DNA from: a virus
DNA length: 20,014 bases
Reading direction: 5' to 3' (one strand)
IMG/VR virus record: IMGVR_UViG_3300044491_001171
Coordinates: 1 to 20,014 of that record
Position 1 is the stretch's first letter. Each line of letters opens with the position of its first letter. Positions 3,516 to 8,270 of this stretch are shown here, in pieces. The notes beneath the pieces were generated by a model. That model searched no databases and was not told the origin of the DNA. It worked only from the letters and a program-made list of their open reading frames with translations. A program made the translations under genes and the position numbers.

Positions 3516-5065
3516 ATGCTAAAAAACGCTATGACAGTTTATCTTCGCAGCGTTCCCAGTTTCTTAATGTAGCAGAACAAGCAGGTAGACTTACTCTCCC
3601 ATATTTAATCAGAGGTGAAGAAGATCCAACAGGTGGCATGAGAAATCTCAAGACACCTTGGCAATCAGTTGGGGCAAAGGGTGTTGTTACTCTTGCCAGT
3701 AAACTAATGCTTGCACTTCTTCCTCCACAAACTAGCTTCTTTAAGCTACAAATGGATGATCAAATGTTAGGAGAGATGGGAGCTGATCCTGCTATTAAGT
3801 CTGAGCTAGACCTTTCTTTTGCAAAAATAGAGCGTACCATTCTTGAATCCATTGCTGCTTCTGATGATCGAGTAGTCGTTCATCAAGCACTTAAGCATTT
3901 GGTAGTGACTGGTAACGCTTTGATCTTTATGGGAAAAAAGAATCTTAAGCTCTATCCACTCAATCGCTATGTTATAGAACGTGATGGGAACGGAAACGTT
4001 ATTGAAATTGTCACGAAAGAACGTATCAGCAAGTTACTCATCAAGGATTTACTTCCTAAGGAAGAACCTAATAGAGTATCTGAAGATTATAATAGTCACG
4101 AAAAAGAATGTGACATTTACACCCATATAAAACGAGACAACAATCGTTTTGTATGGCATCAGGAAGTCTACGGAAAAATCCTTCCTGGTTCTCAAGGTAA
4201 AGCACCATTAGATACAAACCCTTGGATTGCTTTGAGATTCAATACTGTTGATTCTGAACCTTATGGTCGGGGCAGAGTAGAAGAATTTATGGGTGACATC
4301 CAAGCAATGGAAGCACTCTCTCAGGCACTTGTAGAAGGCAGTAGCGCAGCTGCAAAAGTTGTATTCACTGTATCCCCTTCAAGCACAACTAAGCCTGCCA
4401 CGTTGGCTGCAGCTGGTAATGGAGCAATCATCCAAGGTCGGCCAGATGATATTGGAGTTGTTCAAGTCGGTAAAACTGCTGACTTTGCTACAGCCTTTCA
4501 GATGGCGCAAACATTGGAACGTCGTATCTCTGAAGCCTTCCTTATTCTTTCAGTACGTCAGTCAGAACGTACTACTGCTGAAGAAGTTAGGATGACTCAA
4601 ATGGAACTAGAGCAACAGCTTGGTGGATTATTCTCACTATTGACTGTTGATTTCTTAGTGCCTTATCTTAATAGAAAACTTGCTGTATTCCAACGCACTG
4701 GCGAAATACCTAAAATTCCTAAGGGGATTGTTAAACCTACTATTGTTGCAGGTATTAACGCATTAGGTCGCGGCCAAGATAGAGAAAGTCTTGGTCAGTT
4801 TATGATGACTATTGCGCAAACTATTGGTCCTGAAGCTCTTACACGTTACATCAACCCCGAAGAAGTTATTAAGCGTTTGGCTGCTTCTCAAGGAATTGAT
4901 GTTCTTAACCTCGTAAAAACACAGGAGCAGATGCAGCAAGAGATGCAAGAACAAATGCAACAGCAGCAAGGTATGGAACTTACTAAGCAAGCTGGGCAAC
5001 TTAGTGCTGTTGAACAAAAAGCTGCGGAAGCTGAAATGAATCAACAAGGCGCACAACAACAATAA
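3512..5065 (+). CDS. Portal / head-tail connector protein (T7 gp8-like)
   Basis: A 517-aa protein, close to the 536 aa of T7 gp8. Such proteins form the dodecameric ring at one capsid vertex through which DNA is packaged and ejected, and they nucleate head assembly. The N-terminal region resembles the podovirus connector family: RSQFLNVAEQAGRLTLPYLI, then the characteristic PWQSVGAKGVVTLASKLMLALLPP at about 49-72 leading to FFKL. A central region SEPYGRGRVEEFMGDIQAME at about 249-268 and SEAFLIL also fit the family. The C-terminal 50 residues are Gln/Met-rich with QEQMQQEMQEQMQQQQ and end in Gln repeats, probably a coiled coil. It is followed directly by the scaffold gene, as in T7. The start overlaps the upstream stop and has no strong Shine-Dalgarno, so expression is probably coupled. 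Confidence 0.95.
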   Translation: MNAKKRYDSLSSQRSQFLNVAEQAGRLTLPYLIRGEEDPTGGMRNLKTPWQSVGAKGVVTLASKLMLALLPPQTSFFKLQMDDQMLGEMGADPAIKSELDLSFAKIERTILESIAASDDRVVVHQALKHLVVTGNALIFMGKKNLKLYPLNRYVIERDGNGNVIEIVTKERISKLLIKDLLPKEEPNRVSEDYNSHEKECDIYTHIKRDNNRFVWHQEVYGKILPGSQGKAPLDTNPWIALRFNTVDSEPYGRGRVEEFMGDIQAMEALSQALVEGSSAAAKVVFTVSPSSTTKPATLAAAGNGAIIQGRPDDIGVVQVGKTADFATAFQMAQTLERRISEAFLILSVRQSERTTAEEVRMTQMELEQQLGGLFSLLTVDFLVPYLNRKLAVFQRTGEIPKIPKGIVKPTIVAGINALGRGQDRESLGQFMMTIAQTIGPEALTRYINPEEVIKRLAASQGIDVLNLVKTQEQMQQEMQEQMQQQQGMELTKQAGQLSAVEQKAAEAEMNQQGAQQQ

Positions 5066-6362: not shown

Positions 6363-6472
6363 TGCCAATGGTTAATGGAAAGAAGTATCCTTATACCGCT
6401 GCAGGTATGAAGGCTGCTTCTAGTGCTAAGAAAAAAAAGACCACTAAAAAACCTGCAGGTAAAAAATACTAA
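6362..6472 (+). CDS. Tiny Lys-rich protein (36 aa)
   Basis: Opens with the ATG of a TAATG overlap with hli and closes with another TAATG. The N-terminus MPMVNGKKYPYTAAGMKAA resembles a short segment I associate with small proteins of many marine cyanophages. The C-terminal half is almost entirely Lys/Thr/Ala (AKKKKTTKKPAGKKY). With this composition it probably binds nucleic acid or an acidic protein surface, but no function is established. It is too short for ordinary gene finders; the unbroken chain of overlaps and the recognisable start support it being real. Confidence 0.75.
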   Translation: MPMVNGKKYPYTAAGMKAASSAKKKKTTKKPAGKKY

Positions 6473-6636
6473 TGGCTAAATCCGGTCTCTATGCAAATAT
6501 CCACGCTAAGCGTAAGCGTATAGCTGAAGGTAGTGGAGAGAAGATGAGTAAGCCCGGAGCTAAAGGTGCTCCAACTGCAGCTAATTTTAAACGCTCTGCA
6601 AAAACAGCAAGGAAACCTTCTACTAGAAAGTCCTAA
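6472..6636 (+). CDS. Small basic conserved phage protein (54 aa)
   Basis: Translates to MAKSGLYANIHAKRKRIAEG, then SGEKMSKPGAKGAPTAANFK and a basic tail. The pattern GLYANIHAKRKRI...GSGEKM.KPG.KGAPTA is one I recognise as widely shared among marine phage small proteins of unknown function. Overlaps of one base (TAATG) at both ends place it in the coupled chain that begins with the secreted protein. It is rich in Lys and Arg, with no hydrophobic segment or Cys. Its conservation across unrelated tailed cyanophages, recalled from general knowledge, suggests a shared virion or DNA-associated role; this is inference. Confidence 0.8.
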   Translation: MAKSGLYANIHAKRKRIAEGSGEKMSKPGAKGAPTAANFKRSAKTARKPSTRKS

Positions 6637-6854
6637 TGAAAAAGAAAACAGGAAACGTTCAGAAAGCTTTTGATAGTAACTTTACAGCTCAGTCATATGA
6701 GATCGGGCCTGGACATGGTGCTGCTAAGAAAGGACAAAAAATCTATAACAAAGGGAAAAGTTCAACTAATAAAAATGAAAAGGAAACTTTTCTAAAACGT
6801 ACTGGCCCTCAACTACCTCTTGCTAAGAGAAAGATCAACAAAAAATATGGTTAA
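6636..6854 (+). CDS. Basic hypothetical protein (72 aa)
   Basis: Starts at the ATG of a TAATG overlap and encodes 72 residues, MKKKTGNVQKAFDSNFTAQS onward. It is Lys-rich throughout, with YEIGPGHGAAKKGQKIYNKG at about 21-40 and a tail LAKRKINKKYG that resembles the end of the 36-aa protein (both finish near KKY). It is the last member of the coupled chain and precedes the structured non-coding stretch before the capsid gene. No family is recognised. It may be a small head-associated or DNA-binding protein. Confidence 0.7.
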   Translation: MKKKTGNVQKAFDSNFTAQSYEIGPGHGAAKKGQKIYNKGKSSTNKNEKETFLKRTGPQLPLAKRKINKKYG

Positions 6855-6890
6855 CATTAGCCCCCTCAGAGGCTACATAATATCTGATTT

Positions 6891-6912
6891 TTCCTTGTTA
6901 ACTCACAAGGAA
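6891..6912 (+). repeat. Inverted repeat, 8-bp stem with 6-nt loop
   Basis: TTCCTTGT at 6891-6898 and ACAAGGAA at 6905-6912 are exact complements. No T-run follows, so it is not a usual intrinsic terminator. Confidence 0.75.
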
Positions 6913-6950
6913 CGGTTACGGATCTAGGACTGGAAAAACCTAGAGTCTGG

Positions 6951-6981
6951 CAGTGAAGCACCTCAGTGTAGGACTTCACTG
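6951..6981 (+). repeat. Inverted repeat, 8-bp stem with internal pairing
   Basis: CAGTGAAG at 6951-6958 pairs exactly with CTTCACTG at 6974-6981. Inside the loop CCT (6961-6963) can pair with AGG (6970-6972). Outward, two G-U and one U-A pair could extend the stem by three. Confidence 0.75.
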
Positions 6982-7008
6982 TTATTGGCATCGGCCCTTA
7001 CGAGGATA

Positions 7009-7031
7009 CCCTTTGCCGTCTAGACGGTGGG
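7009..7031 (+). repeat. Hairpin with palindromic core CCGTCTAGACGG
   Basis: The 12-nt palindrome at 7016-7027 is nested within CCC (7009-7011) and GGG (7029-7031), so an interrupted hairpin of about seven base pairs with a CTAG loop can form. As DNA, a perfect palindrome could alternatively be a dimeric protein-binding site. Confidence 0.6.
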
Positions 7032-7038
7032 AAAGACC

Positions 7039-7081
7039 ACATACTTAATTAATCCAAGATCTTGGAGTTTGAACATACTTA
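7039..7081 (+). repeat. Direct repeat ACATACTTA flanking a 14-nt palindrome
   Basis: ACATACTTA occurs at 7039-7047 and again at 7073-7081. Between the copies lies the perfect palindrome TCCAAGATCTTGGA (7053-7066). The second copy ends 12 bases before the capsid ATG. The arrangement looks like a binding or regulatory module, but no protein can be assigned. Confidence 0.55.
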
Positions 7082-7093
7082 CTTACTCCTTAA

Positions 7094-8218
7094 ATGGCAC
7101 AACAAAATTCTACACTGGTCACTAACCTAACACGTCCTGGCCAGTCTAATGGTGCGGGTGATTCTCGCGCTCTCTATCTAAAACTGTTTAGTGGAGAGAT
7201 GTTTAAAGGCTTCCAGCAGAACGCGATCGCTCGCGATTTGGTGATGAAGCGTACACTTAAGAACGGCAAGTCATTGCAGTTCATTTATACCGGTCGTACA
7301 ACGGCTGAGTATCACACCCCCGGAAATGCAATCCTCGGTAACACCGATGGTGCGCCTCCGGTGGCCGAGAAGACAATCACCATTGATGATCTTCTTATCT
7401 CCAGTGCATTTTTGTACGATCTTGATGAGACCCTTGCGCATTACGATCTGCGCTCTGAGGTATCTCGCAAGATTGGTTATGCACTTGCAGAAAAATATGA
7501 TCGCTTGATCTTCCGTGCTATTGCACGTGGCGCACGTCAAGCATCACCTATCACTAAGTCCAGCTTTGTTGAACCCGGTGGTACACAGATTCGTGTTGGT
7601 GCAACTACCAATGAATCTGATGCATTCTCTTCTGCTGGTTTGATTGCTGCTTTCTATGATGCTGCTGCAGCATTAGACGAGAAAGGAATCAGTCAGGATG
7701 GCAGGGTCGGGGTCTTGAACCCAAGGCAATATTATGAATTGATCCAAGCTGTTGGTTCCAACGGACTGGTCAATCGTGATACCCAAGGTTCAACCCTGCA
7801 AGCTGGCAACGGCATCATTGAGATTGCTGGTATCAAGATCTACAAGTCCATGAATATCCCCTTCCTTGGCCGTTACGGTACCAAGTACGGCGGTACGACT
7901 GGCCAGACTGATCCTGGTAACACTGGTGATTTCGTGAACCCTGCATTGGAAGATGCTTCCACTGCACAAACCGGCATCAACAATGACTATGGCACCGGCG
8001 CTGAGTTCGGTGCTGTATCTGCTGGCCTGATCTTCCAGAAGGAAGCGGCTGGTTGTGTTGAAGCTATCGGACCACAAGTCCAAGTAACCAGTAATGACGT
8101 GTCCGTGATTTATCAGGGTGACGTTATCCTCGGTCGTTTGGCTATGGGCGCAGATTACCTGAACCCCGCTGCAGCCGTTGAGCTGTATGTAGGTGCTTCA
8201 GCTCCTTCTGCATTCTGA
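7094..8218 (+). CDS. Major capsid protein (T7 gp10-like)
   Basis: A 374-aa protein forming the icosahedral shell (T7 gp10A is 345 aa). It carries the T7-family signature near the N-terminus: SRALYLKLFSGEMFKGFQQN at about 24-43, then KRTLKNGKSLQFIYTGRTTA, and LLISSAFLYDLDETLAHYDL in the central region. Codon choice shifts toward AAC, TTC, TAC, ATC and GGC compared with the A/T-ending codons of the portal and tail genes, as expected for the most abundant phage protein. It is preceded by a 239-nt structured leader and followed by a strong terminator, so it can be transcribed in excess over the tail genes. The start has no adjacent Shine-Dalgarno; a GGAG at 7064-7067 is too far away. I see no convincing slippery site for a T7 10B-like frameshift product. 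Confidence 0.96.
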   Translation: MAQQNSTLVTNLTRPGQSNGAGDSRALYLKLFSGEMFKGFQQNAIARDLVMKRTLKNGKSLQFIYTGRTTAEYHTPGNAILGNTDGAPPVAEKTITIDDLLISSAFLYDLDETLAHYDLRSEVSRKIGYALAEKYDRLIFRAIARGARQASPITKSSFVEPGGTQIRVGATTNESDAFSSAGLIAAFYDAAAALDEKGISQDGRVGVLNPRQYYELIQAVGSNGLVNRDTQGSTLQAGNGIIEIAGIKIYKSMNIPFLGRYGTKYGGTTGQTDPGNTGDFVNPALEDASTAQTGINNDYGTGAEFGAVSAGLIFQKEAAGCVEAIGPQVQVTSNDVSVIYQGDVILGRLAMGADYLNPAAAVELYVGASAPSAF

Positions 8219-8237: not shown

Positions 8238-8264
8238 AGGATCTCTTCGGGGATCCTTTTTTTT
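8238..8264 (+). terminator. Intrinsic terminator after the major capsid gene, C(UUCG)G tetraloop
   Basis: AGGATCTC (8238-8245) pairs with GGGATCCT (8250-8257) through eight pairs including one G-U, closed by the extra-stable UUCG loop at 8246-8249, and a run of eight T ends at 8264. Its position matches T-phi of T7, downstream of gene 10. Partial read-through is required for the tail genes unless they have their own promoter. Confidence 0.93.
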
Positions 8265-8270
8265 ATTTAT

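Follow-up and report, generated by a model that had tools for sequence, protein, structure and literature searches.

In the sea, T7-like cyanophages rank with the most abundant viruses. In Syn5 at least, one known phage promoter drives transcription of most of the genome, raising the question of how the capsid protein is made in excess. The viral DNA analysed here (20,014 nt, hereafter the window) contains a T7-like cyanophage late region. Its major capsid protein (MCP) ORF (7094-8218) matches the PHROGs major head protein (E-value: 4e-86), and the BLAST relatives are Synechococcus and Prochlorococcus podoviruses. The 239 nt between the MCP ORF and a 72-aa ORF (6636-6854) contain, on either strand, no ORF reaching 50 aa. 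A sequence-only reading had described this region as a non-coding, hairpin-rich capsid leader, and the description is borne out by the ORF check, by the inverted repeats found there and by its folding relative to dinucleotide shuffles (z = -2.33; 3 of 200 shuffles equal or better). The accompanying statement that most gene gaps are under 20 nt is not universal (6363-6471 spans approximately 109 nt), although 6855-7093 is the longest non-coding stretch noted in the window.

Inverted repeats were confirmed at 6891-6898/6905-6912, 6923-6928/6939-6944 and 6951-6958/6974-6981, together with palindromes at 7016-7027 and 7053-7066 (Table 1). Comparison with relatives alters how the five repeats originally listed are to be read. 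The first two (6891-6944) also vary in a compensatory manner, and form a separate element with a narrower distribution. The third (6951-6981) is real, with a longer stem than had been claimed. The fourth (7009-7031) is not a conserved pairing: comparison gives the core stems in its place, and a 12-nt palindrome (7016-7027) overlaps two of those stems. The fifth (7053-7066) is real and is a loop-less perfect palindrome. Covariation, proposed earlier as a check on these stems, was found both in the third repeat and in the core. The Rfam search proposed with it gave no match at the gathering score, nor any up to an E-value of 10 in 6840-7110, consistent with a new RNA; in the relatives, the only matches were to glutamine-II, tRNA and, once, abiF, all outside the core. 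No paper describing the capsid leader RNA was found in the literature searched. The suggestion of a functional, new cis-regulatory RNA is thus strongly supported (conserved, covarying and position-specific, with no Rfam match), and from comparative evidence the leader is almost certainly a real, functional RNA.

Table 1. Features of the capsid leader and its surroundings (window coordinates)
Feature	Position	Strand	Description	Basis
Element U	6888..6946	+	hairpins 6891-6898/6905-6912 and 6923-6928/6939-6944, joined by ACGGTTACGGA	comparison, folding
Cassette A, hairpin type (hp2)	6948..6984	+	stem 6948-6958/6974-6984, 15-nt loop CACCTCAGTGTAGGA at 6959-6973	comparison
Core	6984..7017	+		covariation in 146 distinct cores, covariance model, identical to MFE fold
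Core stem P1	6987-6990/7014-7017	+		covariation
Core stem P2, lower	6993-6994/7010-7011	+		covariation
Core stem P2, upper	6996-6998/7003-7005	+		covariation
Core tetraloop	6999-7002	+	UACG	structural parse
Core internal loop	7006-7009	+	AUAC, conserved	structural parse
Module C	7016..7027	+	palindrome CCGTCTAGACGG, overlaps P1 and module D hairpin	inverted-repeat search, comparison
Module D	7027..7040	+	hairpin GUGG-GAAAGA-CCAC, stem 7027-7030/7037-7040	covarying stem, conserved loop
Module E	7053..7066	+	loop-less perfect palindrome TCCAAGATCTTGGA	palindromicity conserved, sequence not
Module F	7064..7089	+	alternative hairpin GGAGU (7064-7068)/ACUCC (7085-7089), uses module E 3' arm	MFE
MCP gene	7094..8218	+	downstream of leader	ORF list, BLAST relatives, PHROGs
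Intrinsic terminator	8238..8265	+	AGGATCTCTTCGGGGATCCTTTTTTTTA, UUCG/U8, directly after MCP	terminator scan, comparison

The core of the leader emerged as a conserved block at 6984-7040 when the upstream regions of 80 close MCP loci were aligned. A DNA pattern scan of IMG/VR gave 120 loci, to which further MCP relatives were added afterwards. The MCP gene lies 47-117 nt downstream of the core in all 117 assessable pattern matches; the other three of the 120 contigs end less than 80 nt past the element, so that MCP is not assessable in them. Exactly one core pattern is present per locus in 298 loci, which represent 146 distinct sequences. This fixed position 5' of one gene holds for the core, and the exceptions concern the hp2 cassette alone.

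Pairing in the core is kept while the paired letters change. Conserved letters were used to build both the gap-free subset (A2) and the regular expressions, so only varying pairs count and invariant ones are given no weight. Plain MAFFT alignment misplaces gaps in the variable-length P2; a structural parse and A2 were used. Upper P2 occurs in 22 sequence versions with every position paired in 146/146 distinct cores (shuffled means: 62-84 at the two variable positions of the three bp). The closing pair x-x' is TA, AT or GC in 128/146 (shuffled mean: 79), the lower P2 pair is GC, AT or TA in 143/146 (shuffled: 100) and the second P1 pair is GC or AT in 146/146. The module D stem falls into four families (GUGG/CCAC, GUCG/CGAC, UCUG/CAGA and UUCG/CGAA), paired in 146/146, around a conserved GANAGA loop. 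Every core pair is kept in at least 128 of the 146 and most in all of them, far above shuffles. Within A2, 99.7% of cells are paired, with a covariation score of 0.268 versus 0.082 for shuffles; slid controls reach 38-65%. The tetraloops are nearly all of the YNMG type (UACG in 122), and the internal loop has the consensus A[UC]A[AC]. Folding 6985-7041 by MFE reproduces the covarying structure exactly.

A covariance model (R1) trained on one clade finds the S-CBP clade and others, with E-values from 1e-5 to 1e-14. The Syn5-like versions were not detected above noise by R1, and are taken as homologous from their position and from an anatomy that looks similar by eye. In the background set, only three marine MAG contigs (L203, L259 and L270) scored above 25 bits; a DNA pattern scan of bacterial genome contigs gave mostly chance matches, and these three alone score as real. 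They are assigned to bacterial MAGs yet carry a capsid-leader core, and are probably phage contigs binned with MAGs.

Directly 5' of the core, comparison of several hundred related loci places one of three things: the hp2 hairpin, a tRNA-like fold or a real tRNA. The window has hp2, not the tRNA-like form. More than 50 different hp2 stem sequences, all still pairing, surround a near-invariant loop, CACCTCAGWGTMGGA; S-RIP2 and S-CBP1 also carry this type. The tRNA-like type, carried by P-SSP7, P-SSP2, S-TIP37 and Syn5, has an acceptor stem, a short D-like hairpin and a T-arm (T-loop TTCGATT or TGCAAGT), with no anticodon arm. Its minimal forms have acceptor stems of 5-6 bp, lack CCA and, taken singly, are little better than shuffles, making the acceptor-stem test weak locus by locus; ARAGORN called no tRNA in them. 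At the same position, ARAGORN calls tRNA-Trp and tRNA-Gly elsewhere: Gly(UCC) in L090 and L125, weaker in L123 and L197, and Trp(CCA) in L419, with a degenerate tRNA in L444 (Rfam tRNA scores from 70 to 32 bits). In all six Rfam tRNA calls, which cover at least two amino-acid types, the last base of the tRNA (the discriminator) is core nucleotide 1. In the tRNA-bearing relatives, a tRNA or tRNA-like fold adjoins the mRNA in the register of an RNase Z site. An abiF RNA match (47.8 bits) also lies just 5' of a degenerate tRNA in one cyanophage capsid leader (L032, 2761-2797).

These cassettes are exchangeable. L444 (tRNA) and L446 (hp2) have identical cores and nearly identical 75-nt downstream flanks, and are unrelated in sequence up to the junction; L077 and L156 show the same kind of swap between tRNA-like and hp2 forms. 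On its own, hp2 precedes psbA in L579 (reverse strand, approximately 2858) and, in L117 (374), L182 and L558, a small ORF that itself lies 5' of MCP. As hp2 precedes psbA and another ORF, it acts as a portable module, and cassette A as a whole is portable and exchangeable. Among 29 isolate or fosmid records, hp2 is confined to cyanophages; loop matches in L550 and L576 were rejected as chance, the stem being absent. In L558 (reverse strand, 1-140), L117 and L182, hp2 and a long hairpin stand before a second ORF of approximately 180 aa upstream of MCP; the L558 protein has no PHROGs match.

Signals for transcription were sought on both sides of MCP. The sequence-only reading had seen a loose likeness to the Syn5 promoter in ATTGG...GCCCTTA (6984-7000). 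In the RNA, these letters make up the 5' side of the covarying stems, and a Syn5 promoter in the window leader was rejected, as ATTGGGCACCCGTAA is absent at the site. The polymerase of Syn5 has only two promoters (PMC3950665), and the published sequence occurs in the Syn5 genome only at 4929 and 44797, being absent from the MCP leader (20017). Because both are far from MCP, post-transcriptional control of the Syn5 capsid is plausible. No sigma-70 -35/-10 hexamers are listed in 6855-7093, and the whole window has fewer than shuffles. A strong terminator follows MCP in 30/30 main-clade loci examined; the same terminator was not found in the S-CBP and Syn5-like loci tested.

The preferred reading, to which we give about an even chance, makes the leader a modular, cis-acting punctuation RNA of T7-like cyanophages, one that would process the transcript and protect the 5' end of the capsid mRNA. 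It joins two functions raised earlier, a capsid-leader stabiliser and an RNase processing site, both as predicted roles, and builds on what the comparison shows: a covarying structure at a set position, cassettes that are exchanged, a register shared with real tRNAs, and the terminator. The exchangeable front piece (hairpin, tRNA look-alike or tRNA) suggests that tRNA-type cutting trims and protects the capsid message. Cassette A would mark a boundary within a long late transcript. A nuclease would part the capsid message from the RNA 5' of it, cutting at core nucleotide 1 (6984) or beside it; the candidates are RNase P/RNase Z where the cassette is a tRNA or tRNA-like. The new mRNA would begin approximately 2 nt before the P1/P2 core, and this folded 5' end may be poorly accessible to the 5'-sensing RNase E and the 5'-3' RNase J, conferring stability, while the cassette would protect the 3' end left on the RNA upstream. 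Together with the terminator, such processing could yield a discrete, stable capsid mRNA with no dedicated promoter.

Cyanobacteria possess RNases P, Z, E and J (PMC10989914), and infection by P-SSP7 raises RNase E (PMC9692554). Against the processing reading stand the weak minimal tRNA-like stems lacking CCA and the S-CBP and Syn5-like clades lacking the same terminator. We also know of no nuclease for the hp2 type carried by the window phage, which counts against it too. As tRNA genes are common in phages, the presence of a tRNA alone is no proof of processing. The exchangeable cassettes and terminator make the question of capsid excess testable in the cultured phages P-SSP7, S-TIP37, S-RIP2, S-CBP1 and Syn5.

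A purely translational leader is possible, if clearly less probable. The core, modules C-F and the palindrome would set ribosome access with no processing, either as an enhancer or through autoregulation by the capsid protein or a host RNA-binding protein. The core and module E always lie within approximately 120 nt of the ATG, and alternative E/F pairings are possible around the purine-rich GGAG/GAGAG stretch before it; in relatives, the module E 3' arm pairs with pre-ATG sequence more than shuffles do. The T7 gene 10 leader, which boosts translation, is a parallel. Left unexplained are the exact register in which a tRNA, tRNA-like fold or hp2 abuts the core and the portable hp2 before other genes.

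The palindromes bring in a further explanation, a DNA-level element (recombination hot spot, att-like tRNA site or binding site for a dimeric protein) behind both them and the tRNA junctions. Module C overlaps P1 and is therefore mutually exclusive with full P1. It is degenerate in the S-CBP clade, and in Syn5-like phages (L448-L493) takes the form of hairpins with G-U pairs and self-complementary loops. The same phages have a hairpin with the loop GGCC(U)AA in place of module D. Module E is centred approximately 38 nt 5' of the MCP ATG in most relatives. In 220 distinct downstream sequences, with arms of at least 6 bp, the loop length is 0 in 146, against at most 13 for any single other length and approximately 6 in shuffles; the palindromes comprise 65 different sequences and use 14 of the 16 possible centres. 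A hairpin would have no need of a self-complementary loop; possible roles are RNA-RNA pairing between transcripts or a symmetric role in DNA. The loop-less perfection and very variable sequence of module E would fit a DNA element, as would the similarity of L444 and L446 stopping exactly at the tRNA 3' end. The stems nonetheless contain G-U pairs and covary as RNA, the leader has one orientation only and a fixed position relative to MCP, and 65 different palindromes suit no sequence-specific dimer, so that a DNA-level element is improbable.

It is likewise improbable that the core acts as a riboswitch, sensing a metabolite to set capsid expression. The idea draws on the conserved internal loop (AYAM/C) and GANAGA hexaloop and on the glutamine-II riboswitches upstream in relatives. 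A glutamine-II riboswitch (RF01704), followed by a short ORF with a YRG motif, is in fact found in the capsid-leader gap of most isolates examined (loci include L281, L282, L283, L285, L286 and L008); the window leader has no RF01704 match. The core has few invariant unpaired positions for an aptamer, its loop conservation is mostly that of a generic YNMG tetraloop, it has no overlapping expression platform, it serves a single structural gene and it matches nothing in Rfam even at an E-value of 10. A promoter or leader for the phage RNA polymerase, suggested by the partial likeness to the Syn5 promoter and by the T7 promoter before gene 10, is very improbable, since Syn5's own MCP leader lacks the Syn5 promoter, conservation tracks RNA base pairing while stem sequences change freely, and the element is not repeated elsewhere in any locus.

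The short ORF bears on a bolder form of the punctuation reading. In 44/46 tRNA-like loci this ORF ends within the tRNA-like fold, with its stop codon 35-46 nt before the core; in hp2 loci the stop codon is scattered, 43 to 291 nt from the core. On this rather unlikely proposal, tRNA, tRNA mimic and 15-nt-loop hairpin are interchangeable parts of an undescribed punctuation system that releases a self-capped capsid mRNA. In the mimic phages, the glutamine-riboswitch-controlled ORF ending inside the mimic would let nitrogen status control, through ribosomes, how the mimic folds, and capsid mRNAs would pair through the loop-less palindrome as a concentration sensor.

By its compensatory covariation and fixed position, the leader belongs with structured cis-acting leader RNAs, and it may be a form of tRNA punctuation, the RNA itself being absent from Rfam. 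As in the mitochondrial model of tRNA punctuation, the mRNA follows directly on a tRNA or tRNA-like fold, and its 5' end is predicted to arise from RNase Z cutting where the tRNA ends (6/6 in exact register). Unlike that model, the leader is viral and has a single site per genome in the loci read, its tRNA is usually reduced to acceptor and T-arm or replaced by a hairpin, and cleavage is predicted. The series includes forms intermediate between a functional tRNA and a signal consisting of RNA structure alone. The T7 gene 10 region has a phage promoter, RNase III sites, a leader and a terminator; the present locus similarly places a leader and terminator round the capsid gene of a T7-like phage, but its leader lacks a promoter match and its covarying RNA is of another kind. 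The c4 antisense RNA of P1-like phages (RF01695) is a phage RNA processed by RNase P, an enzyme proposed here for the tRNA-type cassettes; the leader matches neither its sequence nor its structure (Rfam). Selective RNA processing and stabilisation operate in the cellulosome operon of Clostridium cellulolyticum (PMC4423207), which shares with the leader the proposed intergenic processing and structures setting differing segment stability, but the leader has tRNA-derived cassettes and a conserved covarying core, and its processing is predicted. The glutamine-II riboswitch/Downstream-peptide motif (RF01704) shares the same intergenic region in many relatives, with its short ORF ending inside the tRNA-like cassette, and is an element separate from the leader and absent from the window.

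Element U (z = -1.99 in the folding test) recurs in podoviruses, both related and Syn5-like, where it immediately precedes the cassette and its stems change in a compensatory way; it may be an independent small RNA. It is also present in the T4-like phage S-CAM7 (L498, 1501-1557), where it is followed by a terminator.
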